64,000 nt of DNA from Phycisphaerae bacterium (GTDB taxonomy: Bacteria; Planctomycetota; Phycisphaerae; UBA1845; UTPLA1), in NCBI GenBank assembly GCA_019636475.1, contig JAHBXN010000002.1:372001-436000 (forward strand). Reading direction: 5' to 3'. Shown piece by piece: positions 6,473 to 54,861 of this stretch. The notes under the pieces were generated by a model that worked only from the letters and a program-made list of their open reading frames with translations, was not told the DNA's origin and did not search any database. The translations under genes were made by a program, and so were the position numbers. The stretch's first letter is position 1; each line of letters starts with the position of its first letter.

Positions 6473-7639
6473 TTAAACCGGCTTGGTCAGGGCCGGAGTG
6501 ACCTTCCGGGGATCCGGATTGCGGCCGTCCCCTCGCGTGTCATTCGGGGTGACGAGAGGCGTCTGCGGCGCCGTTTGCACCGGGGCCATTGCATCCGTTT
6601 CGGGCGACGCCGCCTGAACCGAAACACCGTCCGGGTCCGGCGCGAGAGTCACGCGATTTCTTCCGGCAGCTTTCGATTGATACAACGCCCCGTCGGCCGC
6701 CTTCATCAGTTCATCGGGGCTGCCGTATCGATGACTCGCCGCGGAGACGCCGATGCTGATCGTGACCATCAAAGGCGTGCCTTCGTATTCCACGGCCGCT
6801 GATTCGACCGCTTTGCGAAGGTGTTCAGCGCAGACCATCGCGCCCTTGGCTCCGACGCCCGGGCAGAGAATCAAAAATTCCTCGCCACCGACGCGACAAA
6901 CCAGATCGGACTTTCGGCAGCACTTTCGCAGGACCTGTGCGACCGCGCGCAGCACCAGGTCGCCCGCTGCGTGGCCGTGACTGTCGTTGAATCGCTTGAA
7001 GAAATCGATATCCAGCGTGATACAGGCAAACTCCTGATCGTAACGTTCGTAAGCCGCCCAGAGCTGCTCAAGCCGGCTGATGGCCTCTCGGCGATTCAGA
7101 AGCCCCGTCAATTCATCCGTCGTCGCCATCCGCCGAAGCTGATCGTTCGCGTGCTTCAGCTTCTGATGGGTCAGCGCCATCTCCGCGTTGATCCGGTGAA
7201 CCTCTCGCGTGCGTTTTGCCAGATCGGATTCCGCAGAGACGATGCGATCGGCGGCTCTGAGCCTGGCGATCAGTTCCGTCGGCTTGATCGGCTTTCGAAC
7301 GAAATCGTCGGCGCCCGAGTTCAACGCCTCGACCACCTTGTCATCGCCCCCCTGACTGGTCGTCACCACAATATAAGCAAAACGAACACCTTCATGCTGG
7401 CGCAACGCGCGACAGAGATCGAGGCCGTTCATTTCCGGCATGAACCAATCGGTGATAATGATTCGGGGCTCTTCGCTCAAGACAATGCGAAGCGCTTCGG
7501 AGCCGTCGGCCGCGGTGAGAATCTGAAACTCGGTATCACCCAGGTATTTCGTCATCAGCGCAAGCTGCAGCGGATCGTCGTCGACGATCAGCAGCTTCTT
7601 CGCGCGAGGACGGTCCTTGTTTTCCAACGGCGCGCTCAT
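6473..7639 (-). CDS. Response regulator diguanylate cyclase (REC-GGDEF)
   Basis: A 388-residue cytoplasmic protein. The N-terminal receiver has the acidic pocket (VDDDP, residues 19-23), phosphoacceptor Asp64 (ITDWFMP) and the conserved Lys116 (RKPIKP). A helical linker (about 135-170) connects to a GGDEF domain with GGEEF at 251-255, and an RKSD inhibitory site lies at 242-245. The C-terminal ~50 residues are low-complexity Pro/Thr-rich and probably disordered. It makes c-di-GMP in response to phosphorylation. It lies 18 bp downstream of the Hpt gene on the same strand, so the two form an operon. The Hpt protein is the obvious candidate phosphodonor. No histidine kinase is nearby. Confidence 0.93.
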   Translation of the reverse strand: MSAPLENKDRPRAKKLLIVDDDPLQLALMTKYLGDTEFQILTAADGSEALRIVLSEEPRIIITDWFMPEMNGLDLCRALRQHEGVRFAYIVVTTSQGGDDKVVEALNSGADDFVRKPIKPTELIARLRAADRIVSAESDLAKRTREVHRINAEMALTHQKLKHANDQLRRMATTDELTGLLNRREAISRLEQLWAAYERYDQEFACITLDIDFFKRFNDSHGHAAGDLVLRAVAQVLRKCCRKSDLVCRVGGEEFLILCPGVGAKGAMVCAEHLRKAVESAAVEYEGTPLMVTISIGVSAASHRYGSPDELMKAADGALYQSKAAGRNRVTLAPDPDGVSVQAASPETDAMAPVQTAPQTPLVTPNDTRGDGRNPDPRKVTPALTKPV

Positions 7640-7657
7640 CTTCGCCCCCTGACCCCG

Positions 7658-7996
7658 TCAATTCCTTGCCCGAGCCCGCTCACACAAATCAGCGACCTGC
7701 CGCAGATGCCCTGCCAACCGATCAATCGACTCCGACGCCTTGATCGATTCCTCGAGCGCTCCCGCCGCATCTGTAATGGCGGGAAATCCGTATCCGCCGG
7801 CCGCACCCTTGAGTTGATGTGCGACTCGGGCCAGCGTCGCCCAATCGCGCGCCGCAAGCGCCTCGGACATCGCGCCGACCCTCTTGGGAAGTTCGGCGAT
7901 AAAAAACTCAACTAGTTCGATCATGTCGGCGTCGTTCGAAAGTTCGCTTACCAACGCCGACTTCTCGCCTGTTCCTAAATCGTCGAAAGTCTTCAT
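7658..7996 (-). CDS. Histidine phosphotransfer (Hpt) domain protein
   Basis: A 112-residue all-helical protein consisting of one Hpt domain. The phospho-accepting His is His60 in the motif RVAHQLKGAAGGYGF, which matches the family consensus (HxLKGxAxxxG). It would shuttle phosphate between an unlinked hybrid kinase and a receiver, most likely the REC-GGDEF protein encoded 18 bp downstream. It is the first gene of that two-gene operon. Confidence 0.92.
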   Translation of the reverse strand: MKTFDDLGTGEKSALVSELSNDADMIELVEFFIAELPKRVGAMSEALAARDWATLARVAHQLKGAAGGYGFPAITDAAGALEESIKASESIDRLAGHLRQVADLCERARARN

Positions 7997-8358
7997 CGCA
8001 GTTGTCCGGTAACCACCTTTCCGGCATCAATCGAGTCGATGGACGCCGACGTCCGCAGTCCGACGACATGGAGCCGCCGTCATCCTGCGAAGGCCGCTCG
8101 ACTAATTCAGCCGAGCCTGATTAATCCGACAATTCATCGACAGAATAGCAATGCCCGCTTAGTTGAGCGCGGAAATCGTGAACGAATTTCTGACAGCGCC
8201 CGCGGGGTGATCGGGCGAAATTGCACGTGCATCCAGAGTTCATCGCGACGCCGAGAAAATTGACGCCGTGAAACGGTTGCCCTACAACGCCCGATATTTG
8301 ATAAATTTCACAGTCGTCTGATCTGTTTGCGTCAACCCGATAAGAAACTCGCAAGTCG
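7997..8358. other. Divergent intergenic region
   Basis: About 360 bp between the divergent Hpt operon (minus) and the TPR-like gene (plus). Only short shadow reading frames are present. It should contain both promoters, but no hexamer pair was strong enough to report. Confidence 0.4.
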
Positions 8359-8883
8359 ATGCCCATCCGAACCCAATCCAAGTCGACCGATGCACTGACA
8401 GCATGGCGCGAAACGCCGCCGCCCGAACGGATGAACCGGCTGAAAGCCATCGTCGAGGCGGAACCCAATAATGCAACAGCCTGGTACCTGCTGGGGGCGG
8501 TTCGACTTCGGGCGGGCCAGACGCGCGAAGCGGCCCGCTGTTTCGGCGCGGCCTACCATCGCGACGATCGCTTCGAGAGTGCCGCTATTCTGACATTCTC
8601 ATGCCTCAAATCCCGCGAGGACGATTACGCTGATTTCGTTTTCAGCGCGATCGCCACCTACCGCGAAGTGAGAGAAAAGAACCCGGGCCGAACTGCCCTG
8701 GATGCCGGTGTGCTCAATGCCCTTGATGATGAAGGGCGGCCTCTGGCCGCATTTTCGCCAATCGGGCGGGTGATCTGGTGCATGACCAGTCCGGAGAACC
8801 GCAACCGACTCGATCGGATTCTCGGAATGGATGAGGGGCAATCTCTTCGCGAGTCCGAGCGCAAAGCGCCCCCCCGGCGGTGA
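8359..8883 (+). CDS. Small TPR-like protein of unknown function
   Basis: A 174-residue soluble protein without signal peptide. Residues about 22-60 look like one tetratricopeptide repeat (MNRLKAIVEAEPNNATAWYLLGAVRL, given here as its core NATAWYLLG), followed by a second helix pair (AARCFGAAYHRDDRFESAA). The rest is not recognised. It ends in a basic tail. TPR-like helices suggest a protein-protein interaction role. The divergent position to the c-di-GMP operon may be coincidental. Confidence 0.6.
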   Translation: MPIRTQSKSTDALTAWRETPPPERMNRLKAIVEAEPNNATAWYLLGAVRLRAGQTREAARCFGAAYHRDDRFESAAILTFSCLKSREDDYADFVFSAIATYREVREKNPGRTALDAGVLNALDDEGRPLAAFSPIGRVIWCMTSPENRNRLDRILGMDEGQSLRESERKAPPRR

Positions 8884-8908
8884 GTCAGTTTCGAGGACGC
8901 ATTGCGCG

Positions 8909-9352
8909 TCACTCGGTTCCGGTCGCGACCTGCATTCCGGAAGCGCGCCAATCCGCGATCCCTCCGGCGTAGTACCAAACATGTGAATATCCCCACGATG
9001 CCGCCTTCTGAGCTGCATCGTGCCCGACCGGACAATGGACGCTGCCGCAGTAGAACACCATCGGCTGCGCCTTGTCCGCCGGCAAGCTGCTCACGGTCAT
9101 GTCCTGAATGTCGATGTTCTTCGCGCCCGGGATGTGTCCCTTGGCGAAATGCTCGGCATTCAACGCATGGATTACCAGAAGATTTCCCGCGTCCATCTTC
9201 GCTTTCAGTTCCGCCGCGGAGTCAATCCGCCCGACCTGAATGCCGGCGCCGCCCTGGTTCGCGCAGCCCGCGCCGACCGATATCGTCCAAACAATGCAGA
9301 GCAGGCTTCGGCGACTCCAAATTCGGCCGATTCCGCGATTACAACTCGTCAT
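8909..9352 (-). CDS. Rhodanese-domain lipoprotein
   Basis: The Met at 9352 (MTSCNRG) was preferred over the one at 9406. It gives a basic n-region, a hydrophobic stretch (LLCIVWTISV) and a lipobox VGAGC, so the product should be a lipid-anchored envelope protein. The mature part is one rhodanese domain with the DAGNLLVIHALN strand, HIPGAKNIDI and an active-site loop FYCGSVHCPVGHDAA. The loop is longer than in classical rhodaneses and contains a second Cys, so thiosulfate sulfurtransferase activity is uncertain. It has a thiol-rich pocket that might act in sulfur or redox handling. It lies 25 bp from the end of the upstream gene, which is on the opposite strand. Confidence 0.8.
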   Translation of the reverse strand: MTSCNRGIGRIWSRRSLLCIVWTISVGAGCANQGGAGIQVGRIDSAAELKAKMDAGNLLVIHALNAEHFAKGHIPGAKNIDIQDMTVSSLPADKAQPMVFYCGSVHCPVGHDAAQKAASWGYSHVWYYAGGIADWRASGMQVATGTE

Positions 9353-9430
9353 CGGATCTGTCTCCGGAAAATTCTTGAAAGTACCACCTGCAACCCGCTC
9401 GCACACGCGAAACGAGTTGCTCCCTCCACT

Positions 9431-10546
9431 TCAAACCACTTCAAGCAGTTCCTTGGATGTCGTGGTCAGATTTTCGATTCCGGTTTGTGTGGCAACCACC
9501 ATATCCTCGATCCGCACACCGCCCCAGCCCACGAAGTACAAACCCGGCTCGATCGTGAAAACCATTCCCGGCGCGATCTTTTCCTGGAACGTCTGTTTCA
9601 AGCGCGGCGGCTCATGAATTGCCAGCCCGACGCCGTGTCCGGTGCCGTGCATGAACGCATCCGCGCAGCCGTGGTCGCGGAAATAGTCCCGACACAGTGC
9701 ATCAATGTCCTGCCATGACATGCCGGGCTTAATGCCAGCCAGGCAGCGCAATTGTGCTTTTAAGACAAGGTCATATACCTCGCGATGCCGGGAGGAGGCC
9801 TTGCCCATGACCAACATTCGCGTCAAATCGCCGCAATAGCCGTGGTGCACTGCGCCGAAATCGAGCAGCACCAGGTGACCCGATTCCAGCTTGCGATTCG
9901 AATTCGGCGAATAATGCGGTCGAGCGCTGGTCTCGCCGAATGCCACGATCGGACTGAAGCTGTTGCCCTCGCTGTGCTTTCGTAGATAGGTATCAATTTC
10001 GAACGCGACGTCGCGTTCCGACATCCCCACGCGAATCCGCCCGGCAACATGCTCGAAACAGGCACCTGTGATTGCCTGTGCCTGGCGAAGTTCGGCGATT
10101 TCCTGTGCCGTCTTGATCATTCGCAGGCCCGTCATGATGTCGCCGGCCGGTCGACACTCGAGCGTCCCGAGGCACGCCAGAAGGGCGACGGCATCACTAT
10201 GAATCAATGCGTCCGGCTCATAACCCAGCACCTTCGTCGCGGGACCGAGAATTCTCAGCAATTCGTCCGCGATGATCTTCGGGGTGGTCGGCGATTCGAT
10301 TCGATGCGGAGTGATGCCGTTCAGTTCGCCCGCACCGGCGATGTATCGGCCATCGCAAAGCAGGTGAATTTCGCCACGATAGGCCAGCACGAATGCTTCC
10401 GGATCGCCGACGGACTGTACTTCGCCCGGCATCGTCGCATGAAAGCCTGACAGATAGAGGACATTCTTCGGATTGCTGATGAACAACGCATCCAGCCCGG
10501 CTTGGACCATCGCCTGGCTCAATCGCTCATGTCGCATGGAGATCAT
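9431..10546 (-). CDS. Xaa-Pro aminopeptidase-like M24 metallopeptidase
   Basis: A 371-residue cytoplasmic peptidase with creatinase N-domain (about 1-130) and a pita-bread M24 domain. All five metal ligands are visible: Asp in LLDFGAVHHG, Asp in CGDLTRM, His in GTGHGVGLAIHEPP, Glu in TIEPGLYF and Glu in GVRIEDMV. HGTGHGVGL and IHE are the hallmark of prolidase/aminopeptidase P. It removes N-terminal residues preceding proline or splits Xaa-Pro dipeptides, using two Mn/Co ions. The size fits PepQ/YpdF-type enzymes rather than long PepP. A second in-frame Met occurs at 10537; which is used is unclear. Confidence 0.92.
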   Translation of the reverse strand: MISMRHERLSQAMVQAGLDALFISNPKNVLYLSGFHATMPGEVQSVGDPEAFVLAYRGEIHLLCDGRYIAGAGELNGITPHRIESPTTPKIIADELLRILGPATKVLGYEPDALIHSDAVALLACLGTLECRPAGDIMTGLRMIKTAQEIAELRQAQAITGACFEHVAGRIRVGMSERDVAFEIDTYLRKHSEGNSFSPIVAFGETSARPHYSPNSNRKLESGHLVLLDFGAVHHGYCGDLTRMLVMGKASSRHREVYDLVLKAQLRCLAGIKPGMSWQDIDALCRDYFRDHGCADAFMHGTGHGVGLAIHEPPRLKQTFQEKIAPGMVFTIEPGLYFVGWGGVRIEDMVVATQTGIENLTTTSKELLEVV

Positions 10547-45754: not shown

Positions 45755-48685
45755 TCAACGCCGTACGCGCCGCTGCCGCCGGTTCGACCGCATGCGACGC
45801 CCCGTGCCGATCATGGCAAGCATGAGCGACGAGGCCATGGCCGCGCCGCCGCCGCACGCGCCCGAGCCGAAATCAACCGGCGTACCCGCACTGTCGCTTG
45901 ATTGATCGCCACCGGTTTCCGTATCGGCATTGTCGACGGTTTGACCTCCGGCCGTATCCACCTCGCCGCTGTCGACACCGGATTCATCCTGCTCAACCGG
46001 AACTTCAGCGGGGCCGACAGCACCGCGCTCGATGAGCGCGAACGCACCGAGTTTTGCAATCTGAGTTTCCACGGCGAGTTTTCCGTTCAGGAATCGCGAG
46101 TCAATCTCATTCCAGAAGCCGGTTTGCTCATCAAATGCCAGGACAATAAGCAGCTGAGGATCGATCTCGTTCAGCATGGACTCCTGGCTGTCGAACGGAA
46201 GGAGGAACCGCAGAACGACGGGAGCCGACAAAACCGCACCGTCTGTTGAAAGGGCGATCGGTCCAGCCACCATGCGACCGGGAAAGTCATGCGGCAACGG
46301 CGCGGTGGAGCCTCCAATCGCGATTCGCGTCGGTTCCATGAATGCTCCGGCCTGCACTTCGATCTCGACGAGCCCGTCGGCGGACGCCAACTCGCTCGCG
46401 TCGTCATGCGCGGCCCCGGCGATGGTCGATTGTGTCACGACTTCGGCACTCTCTCCGGTCGCGTTGACGGCACTTACCTCGGCAATGACGGTGAACTGCT
46501 CCGGAAATCCGGACATTCGACCGATCCAGTCGCCGGTCGCGGGTTCGAGGCTCATTGGGACGTCTCGCGGTGCTAACTGGGTCTCAACGGAAAGCCGAAC
46601 AATCGGAGCGGACGCCAGTTCCGCGCCGGGTCGAACACGAACCAGGATTTCGTCGACACCAATCGGCTCGAGCTGCACCGCCAGATCAAACGGTGCCGCC
46701 TCAGCCACGAGTTGATGCACCTGCTGCGAGGGCAGCACCTGTCCGGGAGCGGGTTTCAGTACGACAAGCGCACTCGTGCAATCATCCTGTGTGAATTTTC
46801 TTTTCTTTGTAAGAACCTGATAGGAGTTGCCGACATACGCAGTCCACTGGGCACCGACCGTATCACCGATGTGGACTCCCGCAACGGTTCGCACGTTGTT
46901 CTGAAACGGCTTGATGACGCCTGTCGCATCGGTGAATCCCTGAACGATCATGCGGCCTCGGGTGTCTTTCGAGAATACCCGCGCGCCGAGCGCCATCCCG
47001 TTGTGGCTGGACCACTTGAACTGAACCGGCTGACATAGTTGCACATTATTGGCGTCATCGATTCCGACGAATGCCCGCCAGTCGTCAACGGGAATTCCAG
47101 CAAGGCGCCCGACGATGACGCCGCGATCGACCGGCGTTCTGATTCGCCATCGCGGTGCGCCATTCGGTCCCGGGGCCTCCGCTGTGAAGTGCTCCTTGAT
47201 CTCGCTCCAGCAGTCCTGATTACCCTGTCGAGTGCCGGTGAGATGCGGATTGTCCGGATGAATGGAACAGATTTTCGTATAGCTCCATTGATTGAACATC
47301 ATGCAGGATGCCTTTCCGCCGTTGCTCGCGAATTTCGGATCCGCCCCACCGACACCGTGCGCGCAGTGCGTGTCGTTGTCGTCTTCGTATTCATCCTTCA
47401 GGAGCAAGCCGTAGTGTCCGAACTCGTGTACATAGACCGGGGAGTCGTTGCTGCGCGACATGTGAATATGGCTGCTTCGCCAGCAGCACAGATCGTCGCT
47501 TCTCCAGAATCCGTCGGCGGGCCAGTCCACATGGGCGCGGAGGGATGCATTGGCGTAAATTCGGAAATCCGCCTCATCCCAGCGCGCCATGTCATCGAAG
47601 ATATCCACGCGCTCAATGAGCATCTGACCGTCGGTCGCGTTGTACAGATATTCAGAAGCGTCTCGAAGATCATTGGCGAGGCCGCTCAGTTCGCTCGGTG
47701 ATGCGTCCCACTCGACCGATGCCACGAGGTGCAGACCGATGTGCGCCGCGTCGCGCTGCAACTGAAGCGAATAAGCGCCGTTGGGGTCGGTGACAAGGGT
47801 TGGAGTAAAGCGCGGGTTGTCGCCGTTGGCGTCGTGAATCAGCGGAAGGCTCGTGATATACGCACGATATTTCCAGTTTTGCGTGCCGCCGCGGCTGTGA
47901 CCGTCGCGTTCGCTCGCGCTTTCATGGACCAGTGCCCGAGCAACAAGCTTGGACCCGGCGGCAAGCGGCGGATTGACCGTGATGAACCCGTTCGCGTTGG
48001 ATCTCTCGGGATAGAGCACTCCGTTTACATAGAGTTCGGCATTCAGGACGCCGCCACCGTTGGGACTCAGGATGCGAATTCGAGTGCCTTCGGTGACGCA
48101 GTAGTTCACGTCTTCATAGACGAAATACTCCTGATTCTGATTCTGGCCGTAGAATGCGGTCTGCCAGATTGGGACGGTGCCGTTGTCGTCAATGACGACG
48201 ATGCGCACCTGGGTTGTCGTCAGCGGGCTGTTCGGCGCCACGCCTGTATAGAACTCGATATCGAACTCGCCATTGGAATCCGTCTGGCCGGTGGCGATTT
48301 CGCTCTCAAAAAAACTTGCCGGCGGGTTGTAATTGGGATCGCATGAGAAGACCTGCGTCGTCACAAGCAGCTTGACTTTGACGGCCTTGTCAGCGACGGG
48401 CCGAAGGATTCCGCCGCAGGTTTCACGAATCTGTCCGCGGGCGTACGAAGGCAGCATGGGGCCGGGCGGCAACTGAGGTGGATTGCAAGGAATCCCGGGA
48501 GGCAAGGGATCGATGACCACTCCCCCACCACCAAGCGGCGGGCGCGGTCCGGATCCGGTGTTCTGCTCGGCGACAACGCCGACGGCACAAAAAAGTGCAA
48601 GCGCGGCGGCAACACCGCCAGAACACAGGAGCGACCGGTTGCGACGATCGTCACGAGATTCCGAGGCAATAATGAAACGCAGCAT
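45755..48685 (-). CDS. Large secreted protein with CLCA-like metalloprotease motif and sorting-type C-terminus
   Basis: About 976 residues. Start at 48685 (MLRFIIASES) gives a signal peptide (GVAAALALFCAVGVVA); the frame is open to 48844 but that extension is not signal-like. Residues ~40-400 are beta-rich with Gly/Pro segments. At His420 the sequence HEFGHYGLLLKDEYED gives HExxH plus a D-E-Y at the spacing of CLCA-type metalloproteases. A SCMMFNQW segment ~25 residues later could be a Met-turn. Two large beta domains follow. The C-terminus ends in an acidic linker, GACGGGAAM, a short hydrophobic stretch and an Arg-rich tail, like a surface-sorting signal. Probable extracellular protease; proteolysis is inferred from motif only. 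Confidence 0.8.
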   Translation of the reverse strand: MLRFIIASESRDDRRNRSLLCSGGVAAALALFCAVGVVAEQNTGSGPRPPLGGGGVVIDPLPPGIPCNPPQLPPGPMLPSYARGQIRETCGGILRPVADKAVKVKLLVTTQVFSCDPNYNPPASFFESEIATGQTDSNGEFDIEFYTGVAPNSPLTTTQVRIVVIDDNGTVPIWQTAFYGQNQNQEYFVYEDVNYCVTEGTRIRILSPNGGGVLNAELYVNGVLYPERSNANGFITVNPPLAAGSKLVARALVHESASERDGHSRGGTQNWKYRAYITSLPLIHDANGDNPRFTPTLVTDPNGAYSLQLQRDAAHIGLHLVASVEWDASPSELSGLANDLRDASEYLYNATDGQMLIERVDIFDDMARWDEADFRIYANASLRAHVDWPADGFWRSDDLCCWRSSHIHMSRSNDSPVYVHEFGHYGLLLKDEYEDDNDTHCAHGVGGADPKFASNGGKASCMMFNQWSYTKICSIHPDNPHLTGTRQGNQDCWSEIKEHFTAEAPGPNGAPRWRIRTPVDRGVIVGRLAGIPVDDWRAFVGIDDANNVQLCQPVQFKWSSHNGMALGARVFSKDTRGRMIVQGFTDATGVIKPFQNNVRTVAGVHIGDTVGAQWTAYVGNSYQVLTKKRKFTQDDCTSALVVLKPAPGQVLPSQQVHQLVAEAAPFDLAVQLEPIGVDEILVRVRPGAELASAPIVRLSVETQLAPRDVPMSLEPATGDWIGRMSGFPEQFTVIAEVSAVNATGESAEVVTQSTIAGAAHDDASELASADGLVEIEVQAGAFMEPTRIAIGGSTAPLPHDFPGRMVAGPIALSTDGAVLSAPVVLRFLLPFDSQESMLNEIDPQLLIVLAFDEQTGFWNEIDSRFLNGKLAVETQIAKLGAFALIERGAVGPAEVPVEQDESGVDSGEVDTAGGQTVDNADTETGGDQSSDSAGTPVDFGSGACGGGAAMASSLMLAMIGTGRRMRSNRRQRRVRR

Positions 48686-51039: not shown

Positions 51040-52371
51040 ATGCAATCATCGCAATATATACACCGTGTCGTCGATCTGACATCTCAACATCATTGTTGCA
51101 TCCACAATCTGTCGATTGACGAGGCGCGTTCCCGCATCGCCCGCGGCGACGCCGAGGGTGTGCGATCGATCGACGGACATTTCGCACTGGTCGCGATCGT
51201 CGGAAGGACGGTACGAATGGCGAGATCGCTGGGCGTGCCGATGCGCTACTTCCTCGCAAAGCATCACGATGGGCCGGTGCTCATCGTCGCGCATCGGATC
51301 GACGAAATCCACGCTCACCTCCTGGCGAACGGTCTATCGGATCAGTTTCATCCCACATACACGCGGATGGTGCCGGCCCATTACATCACGGAGCTGGAGC
51401 TGGTCGGCTGCCCCGATCCAAGCCCGGTCCATCGGCGATTCTTCGATCCCGCGCGCGCCGCCCTGCCGGCCGAGCCATCGCGGATCGGCGAGCGATATAT
51501 CACGGCCCTCAAGGACGAAATCATCAAGCATATCCGCAGGTTGCCGGCGGATTCGCCGATCGGTGTATGCTTCTCCGGCGGCATCGACAGCGGTGCGGTG
51601 CTGCTCACGACCTATTGCGCTTTGCTGGAGACCGGCTCGCATCCGGGGCGTCTGAAGGCATTCACGCTCAGTGTCAATGGTGACGGCGACGACCTGCGCC
51701 AGGCGCGGCGGTTTCTTGAACCTCTGAAACTGGGCTACCTGCTCGAACCGATCGACACCACGGCCGACGCACTGGACCCGAATGAAACCCTGCGTGTCAT
51801 CGAAGATTACAAACCGCTCGACATCGAGGCGGCAACGATGCTCCTGGCGCTGACGCGCGGCATCCGCAAGCGCTACCCGGACTGGCGGTATCTCTTTGAC
51901 GGTGACGGCGGCGACGAGAATCTGAAAGACTATCCCATCGAGGAAAATCCGGAATTGACCATCCGCAGCGTGCTGAACAATCCCCTGCTCTATCACGAGG
52001 GCTGGGGCGTCGGATCGTTCAAACATTCGCACACCTACAGCGGGGGTCTGAGCCGTGCCTACGTCCGAAACTTTGCCGTGCATGTGTCGCAGGGATTCGT
52101 CGGATTCAGCCCGTTCACACTTCCGCGCCTGATCGAAATCGCGGAGGGCATTCCATTCATCGAGTTGACTGACTGGTCGCACGAGCGCCTGTACGAACTG
52201 AAGGGCCGCATCACGGCCGAAGGCATTCGCGCGGTGACGGGGCTGGAGATGCCCGTCTTTCCGAAGCGGCGATTCCAGCATGGCGTCGCGCCGCGAGAGA
52301 CCATTGACGCCCGATTCGTGTTGCGGGAGGCCGCTTATCGTCGGCGGTATCATGCGATGTATGAAGCCTGA
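51040..52371 (+). CDS. Asparagine-synthetase-like ATP-PPi amide ligase without glutaminase Cys
   Basis: 443 residues. The C-terminal domain has the PP-loop CFSGGIDSGAVL (Ser179 region) and the acidic GDGGDENLK motif of asparagine synthetase B. It would adenylate a carboxylate and form an amide. The N-terminal region keeps only the latter part of the Ntn glutaminase fold (DGHFALVAIVG; AHRIDEIHAH). The first ~60 residues and the N-terminal Cys that releases ammonia from glutamine are missing. Relatives with lost glutaminase work in beta-lactam or amide antibiotic synthesis, using an amine as nucleophile. The gene overlaps the radical SAM gene by 11 bp. Its substrate is unknown. Confidence 0.85.
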   Translation: MQSSQYIHRVVDLTSQHHCCIHNLSIDEARSRIARGDAEGVRSIDGHFALVAIVGRTVRMARSLGVPMRYFLAKHHDGPVLIVAHRIDEIHAHLLANGLSDQFHPTYTRMVPAHYITELELVGCPDPSPVHRRFFDPARAALPAEPSRIGERYITALKDEIIKHIRRLPADSPIGVCFSGGIDSGAVLLTTYCALLETGSHPGRLKAFTLSVNGDGDDLRQARRFLEPLKLGYLLEPIDTTADALDPNETLRVIEDYKPLDIEAATMLLALTRGIRKRYPDWRYLFDGDGGDENLKDYPIEENPELTIRSVLNNPLLYHEGWGVGSFKHSHTYSGGLSRAYVRNFAVHVSQGFVGFSPFTLPRLIEIAEGIPFIELTDWSHERLYELKGRITAEGIRAVTGLEMPVFPKRRFQHGVAPRETIDARFVLREAAYRRRYHAMYEA

Positions 52372-53329
52372 AACAGCCGGCGCGCTGCCGCGAATGGATG
52401 ATGAGTGGATTCTGTCTCGGCGCGGTCCACGCGCGACGGTGGACCCGCAGCGGGCCTACGCATGTCTGGTCGAGCCCGAGTATCAGCGCGATGGACGGCT
52501 TGAAGACGTCGCGACGATCTTCATCACGAACAAGGAGTGTCCGTTCCGCTGCCTGATGTGCGACCTGTGGACGCACACCACGAGGACGCGGTCCCGGCCG
52601 GGGATGGTCATCGAGCAGATTCGCCACGCCTTGTCGGAGCTTGCCCCGGCCCCGCATGTCAAGCTCTACAACGCCGGCAACTTCTTCGATGCGCAGGCTG
52701 TTCCGCCGACGGACCTCCCGGACATCGCGCGACTCGTGAAGTGCCATCGAACTGTCATTATTGAATGCCATCCGCGGCTGGTCAACGATCGGTGCACGGC
52801 GTTTGCCGACCTGATTGACGGCCGGCTGGAGGTCGCGATGGGCCTGGAGACCGTGGACCTGGGCGTACTTCCGTTGCTGAACAAGCGAATGACGCTCGAT
52901 GATTACCGGAAGGCGGCGGAATTTCTCTTGGCACGCGGCATCGGCGTGCGAGCGTTCATCCTCCTGCGGGCCCCGTTTCAATCCGAGGCCGACGGTCTGC
53001 ACTGGGCGATGCGCTCACTCGACTGGGCTTTCTCCATCGGCGTCGAGTGCTGCGTGGTGATTCCGACGCGCCCGGGCAATGGGGCATTGGATGCCCTCCA
53101 GGGAATGGGTCAGTTCTCGCCGCCCCAGCTGGCTTCGCTGGAAACCGCCGTGGAATACGGGCTGTCGCTCGGACGCGGCCGGGTTTTTGCGGATCTGTGG
53201 GACGCTCACCGCTTTATCGTCGAGGCCGAAGATGCAGCGCGGATCGATCGAATCGCCCAGATGAACGCGACACAGTGCCGCCCATCCGGCGCGGGCACCA
53301 AGGCGAAGGGCCGAGCGGCGCGAGCATGA
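52361..53329 (+). CDS. Radical SAM protein, RaSEA/TIGR01210-like
   Basis: 322 residues, ATG at 52361 overlapping the previous gene by 11 bp. The cluster motif CPFRCLMC (Cys60, Cys64, Cys67) binds the 4Fe-4S cluster that cleaves S-adenosylmethionine. The barrel shows strands and loops such as VKLYNAGNFFDA and TVIIECHPRLV. These recall the archaeosine-synthase-associated radical SAM group and other Elp3/MiaB-type proteins with 'GSFLD' and 'E.RP' segments. There is no obvious second cluster or SPASM domain. The stop overlaps the next gene's ATG (ATGA). Which C-H bond or insertion it acts on is unknown. Confidence 0.83.
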   Translation: MKPETAGALPRMDDEWILSRRGPRATVDPQRAYACLVEPEYQRDGRLEDVATIFITNKECPFRCLMCDLWTHTTRTRSRPGMVIEQIRHALSELAPAPHVKLYNAGNFFDAQAVPPTDLPDIARLVKCHRTVIIECHPRLVNDRCTAFADLIDGRLEVAMGLETVDLGVLPLLNKRMTLDDYRKAAEFLLARGIGVRAFILLRAPFQSEADGLHWAMRSLDWAFSIGVECCVVIPTRPGNGALDALQGMGQFSPPQLASLETAVEYGLSLGRGRVFADLWDAHRFIVEAEDAARIDRIAQMNATQCRPSGAGTKAKGRAARA

Positions 53330-54861
53330 GTCACATGCGCGCAGAATTGCTCGTCATCGGCTCCGGTTTCGGCGGCTCGATGATTGCGCAAATGATGCAG
53401 CGCCACGGCATGCGCGTCGCCCTGGTCGATCGGTCGCACCACCCGAGGTTCGCAATCGGTGAATCGTCCACGCCGATCGCGAACCTGCTGATCGAACGCA
53501 TCGCAGTCGAGCAGGGCCTTCCTCAGTTGCAATCGTTTGCCCGTTACGGCGACTGGCGACAAGCACACCCGACCATTCCATGCGGCCCCAAGCGCGGCTT
53601 TGCCTATATTCATCATATTCCGAACCGTCCGTTTTTGCGGCGGGCCGACCACGCCAACGAACTATTCGTCGCGTCGAATCCGGACATCGAGCGCTCTGAT
53701 TGCCAGTGGCTTCGATCGGAGTTCGACGCGTATCTCTTTGGCGAGGCGTGCCGCGCCGGCGTTGCCTGCTTCGAGGATGCCGAGCCTGTTGCGCTGCACC
53801 GCGCTGGCAGAAAACGCCGCAACGCAACCTGGCAAGCTTGCTTCGAACGGGCCGGCGCACACCACACGATTGATGCGGATTTCGTCATCGACGCGACCGG
53901 CAGCGGCGTCATACCGACGGCACTTGATGTGCCGGACGCGCTCAGGGGGATTCGCACGAACTCACGAACAATCTATGCCCACTTTCGCGACATCGCACGG
54001 TGGAACGAACTCCACGCGACTCACGGCGCGGACGAGCATCCGTTTTCGGCGGATGAGGCGACCCTGCACCACGTCTTCGACGGTGGCTGGATGTGGATCA
54101 TCCGCTTTGACAACGGTGTGACGAGCGCCGGTTTTTCCCTCGATACGACGCGCTTCCCGAGCAACCCGGCCACGCCGCCCGAACAGGAATTCGGAGGGCT
54201 GGTCGCGATGTTTCCTTCCATTCAACGGCAGTTCGCCCGGGCACGCCCCATCACGCCGATGATACGAAGCGGCCGCATTCAGCGTTTCCGGTCGCATGCG
54301 GCCGGGAACGACTGGGCGATGTTGCCGGCGACCGCGGGGTTCGTCGACCCCTTCTTCTCAACCGGCAATGCACATACGCTCCTGGGCGTCATGCGCCTGG
54401 CAGAGATTGTGACGAGGACCACGCCCGGCGACGACCGCGCGGAGCGACTCGTCGCGTATGATCGGATGATCCGCCAGGAAATCCGTGCGATCGACCGGCT
54501 GGTGCACGGCTGCTTCCGCTGTTTCGGCGACATGGGCCGGCTGAGCGCCTTCGCGATGCTCTATTTCCTCGCGGCGACAACCTGCGAAGCCCGCCTGCGC
54601 CGGGGGGAACCCGTGGACGACGTCGGCTTCCTCCTGGCGGGAGACGCCGCCTTTCAGGACATGGTTGCCGGCTTTCATCATCGGATATGCATCGATCGTG
54701 ACGCAGCGACGCCGGCCGGGGATTCGTCGCTGCTGTGCGAGATTCGCGACCGCGCGGCAGCCTACAATTCGGCCGGACTCTGCGACCCGAACCGGCGGAA
54801 CCTGTATCCGTACCTCGCGCCGACGGACGAAACCTCAGCGCGCAGCCGCTCGGAGCGTTGA
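53326..54861 (+). CDS. Flavin-dependent halogenase/monooxygenase-like oxidoreductase
   Basis: 511 residues. Starts by ATGA overlap with the radical SAM stop. The dinucleotide-binding fingerprint is VIGSGFGGSM (residues 10-19), followed by FAIGESSTPIANL (GESSTP at 45-50). This is the GEx(S/T)xP region of tryptophan-type flavin halogenases. A WxWxI motif is present at W255/W257 (GGWMWIIRFDNGVTSAG, given as its core WMWII), though the usual Pro after it is Arg. It is likely a halogenase or related FADH2 oxygenase. The position of the catalytic Lys is not certain, so chlorination/bromination is possible but not proven. Confidence 0.82.
   Translation: MSHMRAELLVIGSGFGGSMIAQMMQRHGMRVALVDRSHHPRFAIGESSTPIANLLIERIAVEQGLPQLQSFARYGDWRQAHPTIPCGPKRGFAYIHHIPNRPFLRRADHANELFVASNPDIERSDCQWLRSEFDAYLFGEACRAGVACFEDAEPVALHRAGRKRRNATWQACFERAGAHHTIDADFVIDATGSGVIPTALDVPDALRGIRTNSRTIYAHFRDIARWNELHATHGADEHPFSADEATLHHVFDGGWMWIIRFDNGVTSAGFSLDTTRFPSNPATPPEQEFGGLVAMFPSIQRQFARARPITPMIRSGRIQRFRSHAAGNDWAMLPATAGFVDPFFSTGNAHTLLGVMRLAEIVTRTTPGDDRAERLVAYDRMIRQEIRAIDRLVHGCFRCFGDMGRLSAFAMLYFLAATTCEARLRRGEPVDDVGFLLAGDAAFQDMVAGFHHRICIDRDAATPAGDSSLLCEIRDRAAAYNSAGLCDPNRRNLYPYLAPTDETSARSRSER

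Follow-up and report, generated by a model that had tools for sequence, protein, structure and literature searches.

A predicted surface zincin related to CLCA-layout proteins in a Phycisphaerae bacterium, with a C-terminal cysteine and arginine tail

The stretch of DNA analyzed here, called the window, comprises 64,000 nucleotides of contig JAHBXN010000002.1 (positions 372,001 to 436,000, forward strand; assembly GCA_019636475.1, Phycisphaerae bacterium). Its positions 45755-48685 encode, on the reverse strand, a protein of 976 residues that we refer to as P0001, with a predicted zincin-type catalytic domain and a distinctive C-terminal tail. The frame, start and coordinates of the gene all check out: the ATG lies at 48685 and is preceded by AGGGAG at 48700-48695, with a spacer of nine bases. 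Promoter-like sites for the gene numbered 0 against 0.9 expected. A preliminary description made from the DNA letters had called the protein giant; it is large, but with 976 residues the word is generous. Loci and genomes are numbered below with L and G, respectively, G000 being the bacterium's own genome. The features of the gene, in window positions and with the basis of each assignment in parentheses, are the following:

45755..48685 (-), whole coding sequence, 976 aa (start signals; an orthologue 52-54% identical)
48569..48685 (-), probable signal peptide, residues 1-39, core GGVAAALALFCAVGVVA (hydropathy; cleavage site by eye)
47966..48448 (-), N-terminal region, residues 80-240, without a Pfam or NCBIfam match (kept in the orthologue)
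47171..47758 (-), zincin-type catalytic domain, about residues 310-505 (profile comparisons)
47387..47428 (-), predicted zinc motif HEFGHYGLLLKDEY, residues 420-433 (counts at 29 loci; roles by analogy with M64)
47210..47305 (-), Met-turn candidate C461-M462-M463, then C473, H481 and C492-W493 (counts at 29 loci)
46025..46414 (-), C-terminal region, residues 758-887, probably beta-rich (orthologue, weak relatives, AlphaFold)
45869..46024 (-), acidic low-complexity linker, residues 888-939 (sequence)
45758..45862 (-), tripartite tail of GACGGGAAM, hydrophobic stretch and Arg-rich end, residues 942-976 (C944 invariant in ten tails)

The peak hydropathy windows of the whole protein fall at its N-terminus, in residues 17-42. 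The C-terminal region (residues 758-887) was conserved in the orthologue and, weakly, in four relatives that lack a von Willebrand A (VWA) domain (independent E-values of 1.8e-4 to 0.008). Its AlphaFold model, with a predicted local distance difference test score (pLDDT) of 53.5, was marginal and consisted mainly of strands, and a Foldseek search with it gave 0 matches at E<=0.001.

The preliminary description had singled out a metalloprotease motif in which HExxH is followed, after six residues, by DEY. This spacing is indeed present at residues 420-433 (H420, E421, H424, D431, E432 and Y433), and the arrangement HExxHx6DEY is expected by chance 1.6e-6 times per protein of this length and composition. 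Among the 387 frames of at least 80 aa (stop to stop) in the window, HExxH occurred in six, P0001 included, and the full motif in P0001 only. One orthologue was found (L002 and L008, which have the same translation), and it keeps the motif with its D, E and Y, the CxM element, the cysteines and the Cys/Arg tail. A Met-turn had been suspected downstream of the motif, and a candidate was located at C461-M462-M463-F, with C461 and M463 also present in the orthologue. The cysteines that follow the active site in P0001 are C441, C461, C473 and C492. The motif by itself is not diagnostic: 59 stretches of viral contigs match HExGHx6DEY, and the 57 printed instances, judged by eye with no family scan, belong mostly to other families, with a few being M64-like, so the surrounding sequence has to decide. 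A PDB sequence search with whole P0001 gave no match at E<1.

For profile comparisons we used 24 related zincin domains chosen by a regular expression demanding HExxHx6[DN]E and CxM/C (L044 was added by hand and L050 excluded). Because this selection by motif partly builds in the conservation, the residues were recounted at 29 loci, L015-L043, which are the loci of the best matches to a four-row profile after the own genome was dropped; that profile held P0001, L002, L009 and L010, and the loci are thus not independent of P0001. H420, E421 and H424 were found at all 29, i.e., HExxH was invariant. At the position of D431, 25 loci had Asp and four Glu, and at E432, 25 had Glu and four His. Y433 was kept in 23, C461 in 28 (Ser in one), M463 in 24 (four other residues, one gap), C473 in 28 (one gap) and H481 in 24 (five gaps). 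Where aligned, C461, C473, H481 and C492 are near-invariant. The exchange of E432 only to His, another metal ligand, matches the prediction of a metal-binding role for this residue. The four loci with DH or EH in place of DE (L035, L038, L042 and L043) keep HExxH and the cysteines and represent natural ligand swaps; L032 and L034 have EE at this position and likewise keep HExxH and the cysteines.

Taken by analogy, the residue set would fit a catalytic zinc (H, H, D) together with a structural zinc of the M64 kind (E, C, C, C). For M64, PMC12402451 gives H539/H543/D550 as the catalytic set and E551/C606/C616/C619 as the structural zinc site. PMC12237041 describes a Met-turn at C606-I-M608 with Y552 nearby, and its legend assigns the structural site to an aspartate and three cysteines.

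All zincin-class and tail profiles were run on genomes of the bacterium's own phylum, and runs outside the phylum served as tool controls. A two-row profile of the catalytic regions of P0001 and its orthologue, run on 397 genomes of the class, detected L006 (E 6.4e-7) and L007 (E 1.2e-4), both with a VWA domain C-terminal to the zincin. With the four-row profile, 45 of the 392 phylum genomes gave a match (E<=0.01), the own genome included, and the matches given as L015-L043 were read. Loci with the same translation count once (L002/L008, L006/L009 and L007/L010), and by coordinates L015-L025 correspond in order to L044-L054. The close form of P0001 was rare and occurred in 2 of 61 relatives, including the own genome. 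A genome-contig collection yielded no relative with whole P0001 as query and only the orthologue with the two-row profile; none was found in the viral contigs scanned, nor in plasmids scanned with two queries.

The relatives fall into three classes. Because the class profiles drew in part on these very loci, the class labels, unlike the DxSxS pattern, are partly by construction. The VWA-less class (P0001, the orthologue and L019-L022) had DxSxS in none of its six frames, and the VWA class (L006, L007, L015-L018, L023-L025 and L032) in 10 of 10. The third class takes in the 17 remaining loci, whose open frames, within the sequence fetched, are 223-711 aa long; a single DxSxS, in L040, was taken as chance. 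Pfam confirmed VWA in eight proteins (L006, L007, L045, L046, L047, L052 and two of L054), the last two being tandem zincin-VWA genes of one genome (L054:3176-6574 and 6578-9820). In hhalign comparisons the VWA-less set matched a disjoint VWA set with E 1.9e-21 over 165 columns and the third set with E 3.2e-26 over 154 columns. A hidden Markov model (HMM) built from VWA-class zincins only gave P0001 50.3 bits, compared with 24.4 bits for the best motif-only viral frame, L069. In the reverse direction, the HMM of P0001's class gave 50, 42 and 39 bits for L044, L010 and L009 of the VWA class, and 13.6 bits for the best viral frame. In a ten-sequence BLASTP set, P0001 and L048 (a longer fetch of L019) aligned collinearly over residues 229-887 with E 3.6e-23, which indicates that the VWA-less layout is itself conserved. 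A CarboxypepD_reg domain lies directly N-terminal to the zincin in L048 and L049, the two VWA-less relatives scanned.

The motif had been described as CLCA-type. The CLCA consensus is printed as HExxHxxxGxxDEY (Lenart et al. 2013, PMC3650047), and the spacing matches; however, the consensus Gly is replaced in P0001 by Leu and in the orthologue by Gln, with the rest of the motif kept, and the viral instances show that the spacing is not specific. L048-L051, from the same VWA-less class, do have the Gly. P0001 shares with CLCA the motif spacing and a Cys-rich stretch after the active site, which is a criterion for CLCA, and its relatives share the combination of zincin and VWA with DxSxS. It differs from CLCA in having no VWA, which the domain scan did not find in the orthologue either, a score under the CLCA cut-off, no consensus Gly, flanking regions of its own and the Cys/Arg tail. 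The CLCA N-terminal profile (PF08434), proposed earlier as a check, gave no match for whole P0001. It matched 6 of the 24 related zincin domains at E<=10 (best 6.3e-5); searches with the CLCA model gave 0 in the own genome and weak matches in 2 of 294 phylum genomes (L012 and L013). L013 was rejected as a false positive, its frame reading by eye as a kinase and beta-helix with a weak PF08434 match. The NCBIfam model hCaCC (TIGR00868) matched 8 of 13 full zincin proteins, nine of which are of the VWA class, with a best E of 3.5e-33; P0001 was not among them, and all matches lie below the cut-off of 900.85, which was set for a full-length animal-type model. The best hCaCC stretch of L009, residues 191-283, takes in the Cys region and the first part of VWA. 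On sequence grounds P0001 is thus CLCA-like and not a formal CLCA member: of the earlier claim of a CLCA-related protease, the relation of its zincin domain to proteins of CLCA layout stands, but membership, with the score below cut-off and no VWA, does not. CLCA_X proteins (Lenart et al. 2013, PMC3650047) are likewise bacterial CLCA-related zincins, many of them long; their printed consensus there, HExxHxxxD, differs from the HExxHx6DEY of P0001, and they are set apart from it by description only.

The C-terminal tail had been noted earlier as GACGGGAAM followed by a hydrophobic stretch and arginines, resembling a surface-sorting signal. It is present, and it resembles tails of other proteins: the last 60 residues of P0001 are similar to the C-terminus of a repeat protein of the own genome that has no other match (E 0.0014). 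A three-tail profile gave 28 listed matches in G000 and G009, including the three tails that had gone into it; of the other 25, 14 were checked by script and seven of these end long frames (two in the own genome, five in G009). A sorting-type tail that recurs on other proteins, for which a search had been proposed earlier, is supported by these matches. Otherwise dissimilar carriers of the tail are found at window 45758-45862, L011:6436-6549, and L126 and L129 of the own genome; G009 carries it at L008, L125, L127, L130, L145 and L148. Signal peptides on tail-bearing proteins were judged by eye. Ten tails gave the consensus GxCGxGAxxMAPxxLAGLxxxRRxRRRR with invariant Cys-Gly, and a profile of these gave matches (E<=0.05) in 55 of the 61 related genomes, where G000 and G009 are included by construction. 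In eight new genomes, checked at one locus each, all eight tails ended 0-15 residues before the stop.

A tripartite tail with an invariant Cys on several proteins per genome is a criterion for MYXO-CTERM and was found here. As described in PMC11980579, the MYXO-CTERM/MrtX system resembles this tail in its short motif with an invariant Cys, hydrophobic stretch, Arg-rich end and presence on several proteins per genome. Unlike that system, the P0001 tail has no match among NCBIfam models, including those for MYXO-CTERM (TIGR03901/TIGR03382). The MYXO-CTERM models matched three of the ten related tails at E<=10 (best 0.0016 and 0.011), and Synerg-CTERM gave the orthologue 10.4 bits against a cut-off of 22.5. 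The own genome encodes six CPBP proteins (L114-L119), of which L118 passes TIGR03008 (83.3 vs 81.05) and L115 an ABC-permease/CPBP model. Across the 61 genomes, Mrt_core gave matches at E<=1e-10 in 10 and over the cut-off in 0. Among the 13 full zincin proteins, choice-of-anchor X matched seven and NF058595, a putative C-terminal anchoring domain, five; because of the latter matches, surface anchoring may recur in the zincin family by other means.

The sequence shows that the P0001 domain is homologous to these zincins and that its set of ligands is conserved; it also shows that the N-terminus is hydrophobic and that the C-terminal tail occurs on other proteins as well. We consider it likely that P0001 is a Sec-exported, cell-surface zinc endopeptidase from a VWA-less branch of CLCA-like zincins, and it is probably active as a surface protease. 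Several results weigh against this reading. No Pfam or NCBIfam model matched whole P0001 over its cut-off. The zincin scored 14.1 bits with Pfam CLCA against a cut-off of 25.6, and the alignment lay outside the motif (domain residues 46-73). With the zincin alone, hCaCC matched only 3 of the 24 domains (best 0.011), and a large part of the 3.5e-33 may therefore be due to VWA and the domains after it. Scores of the P0001-class HMM on the VWA class ranged overall from 14.9 to 51 bits, with some members low (14.9-31 bits) and the weakest barely above the viral 13.6. For motif-only viral frames, the VWA-class HMM gave nominal E-values down to 3.4e-6 and the third-class HMM down to 4.9e-6; small E-values therefore overstate kinship. 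C492 was kept at 23 of the 29 loci and the other six had no aligned residue, forms without the CW element being among them. The AlphaFold model of the zincin, built on a two-row alignment, had a pLDDT of 30.7 and no usable fold; clustering of the ligands is for this reason inferred from solved M64 structures, which match P0001's class around the motif only. As regards sorting, a CPBP-type processing protein had been proposed as something to look for; the genome has the six CPBP proteins, but, unlike in the MYXO-CTERM/MrtX system, none passes a myxosortase-type cut-off; exosortase and rhombosortase were not searched.

P0001 might instead have diverged within a different zincin family, either M64 (igalysins) or M6, which we regard as unlikely. 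HExxHx6DEY and CxM..C are common to P0001 and M64, and the likeness extends to the H-E-H-D set with one extra residue, the DEY Glu and three Cys of a structural zinc site that in P0001 is predicted, the CxM of the Met-turn, in P0001 a candidate, and the Tyr after DE, as described for Thomasclavelia ramosa IgAse, BF3526 and 3P1V in PMC12237041 and PMC12402451. The Glu of DEY and the three cysteines that would correspond to the M64 structural-zinc residues are present in P0001 and conserved at the 29 loci, as judged from alignment. M64 occurs widely in the phylum (in 50 of the 119 genomes), a profile of the 24 domains found M64 structures (IgA peptidases) in the PDB with E 1.2e-7, and PF09471 (M64) weakly matched 13 of the 24 (best 0.0054). 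However, PF09471 did not match P0001, and the own genome had 0 M64 matches at E<=1e-5. The VWA-class profile alone reached the M64 structures with E 0.012 and the P0001-class profile alone with E 0.23, the latter a further weakness of our reading. The CxxC of M64 is missing and replaced by C473...C492-W493, a C...H...CW arrangement. In hhalign against 21 phylum M64 domains (30 loci gave 25 domains by script, of which 21 were aligned), similarity covered 24 motif columns only (prob 91, E 1.3e-6), compared with 165 columns for the VWA class. All three classes aligned to phylum M64 over 24-25 motif columns only, the P0001-class profile being shallow (Neff 1.9). This restriction is read as distant zincin kinship, and M64 membership was rejected on the motif-only alignment, the missing PF09471 match and the absent CxxC. 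M6 has on its side the best NCBIfam match of the P0001 zincin (TIGR03296, E 0.011) and matches to 14 of the 24 domains (best 4.7e-6), which also count against a CLCA-like assignment; yet the former scored 15.7 bits against a cut-off of 110.8, and the M6 model aligns about 35 residues around the motif only.

Nor do we find it probable that P0001 is a non-proteolytic zincin, i.e., a structural or adhesive surface protein keeping its metal sites. CLCAs include many members with substituted sites, according to PMC3650047, the Gly of the consensus is missing in P0001, and its close form is rare, but HExxH, D, E, Y, CxM and the Cys set are complete in both P0001 and the orthologue. That HExxH stands by chance in a protein with some unrelated fold would agree with the occurrence of the motif in other viral proteins and with the failed AlphaFold model of the zincin; the low chance expectation, profile similarity extending far beyond the motif and conservation of the ligands across the 29 loci make it very improbable.

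If P0001 is a surface zinc endopeptidase, H420, H424 and D431 would hold the catalytic zinc and E421 would act as the base that activates water, with M463 forming the Met-turn and Y433 possibly steadying the intermediate as a tyrosine switch. E432, C461, C473 and C492 would hold a second, structural zinc like E551/C606/C616/C619 of M64. By analogy with the MYXO-CTERM model (PMC11980579), the tail may insert in the inner membrane and be cut near C944, after which P0001 would be lipid-anchored and displayed outside via the acidic linker. The substrate would most likely be an extracellular protein. VWA, the partner domain in CLCA, is absent, and the flanking domains would have to bind the target. 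The domain order of CLCA1 and its self-cleavage are described in PMC6851300.

Bacterial CLCA proteins were listed from Chloroflexi, Synergistetes, Proteobacteria and Thermococcus (Table 2 in Lenart et al. 2013, PMC3650047), and a planctomycete term is absent from the text of that paper. Among the literature matches listed, it was the sole paper on bacterial CLCA recognized by title; none was so recognized for a planctomycete Cys tail, and no structure of a CLCA zincin domain was present. We tentatively propose, as a joint idea that we hold at less than even confidence, that CLCA-like zincins radiated broadly and perhaps long ago in the phylum (with VWA, without it and in other forms, some with DH/EH), the animal CLCA zincin-VWA pair being maybe bacterial in descent, and that the Cys-Gly/Met-Ala-Pro/Arg tail is the signal of an order-wide, Cys-based surface sorting whose enzyme goes unrecognized by curated myxosortase models. 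Bacterial descent of the animal pair, if true, would run opposite to the transfer from animals to bacteria that was proposed in 2013. CLCA proteins, whose origin is unsettled, are a subject of research on mucus and airway disease. A second zinc bound via the DEY Glu and a Cys cluster is for CLCA only postulated, and a VWA-free bacterial relative with the full ligand set offers a simple protein for probing it. The tail provides a concrete starting point for finding a route of protein sorting in the group to which P0001 belongs.

The gene for P0001 is flanked by those for a GH1 glycosidase and an Asp-Al_Ex permease, each on the opposite strand. Further along the window, at 51040-54861, lie adjacent asparagine-synthase-like, radical-SAM-like (just below cut-off) and tryptophan-halogenase-like FAD genes, a trio that is perhaps a natural-product or peptide-modifying cluster.

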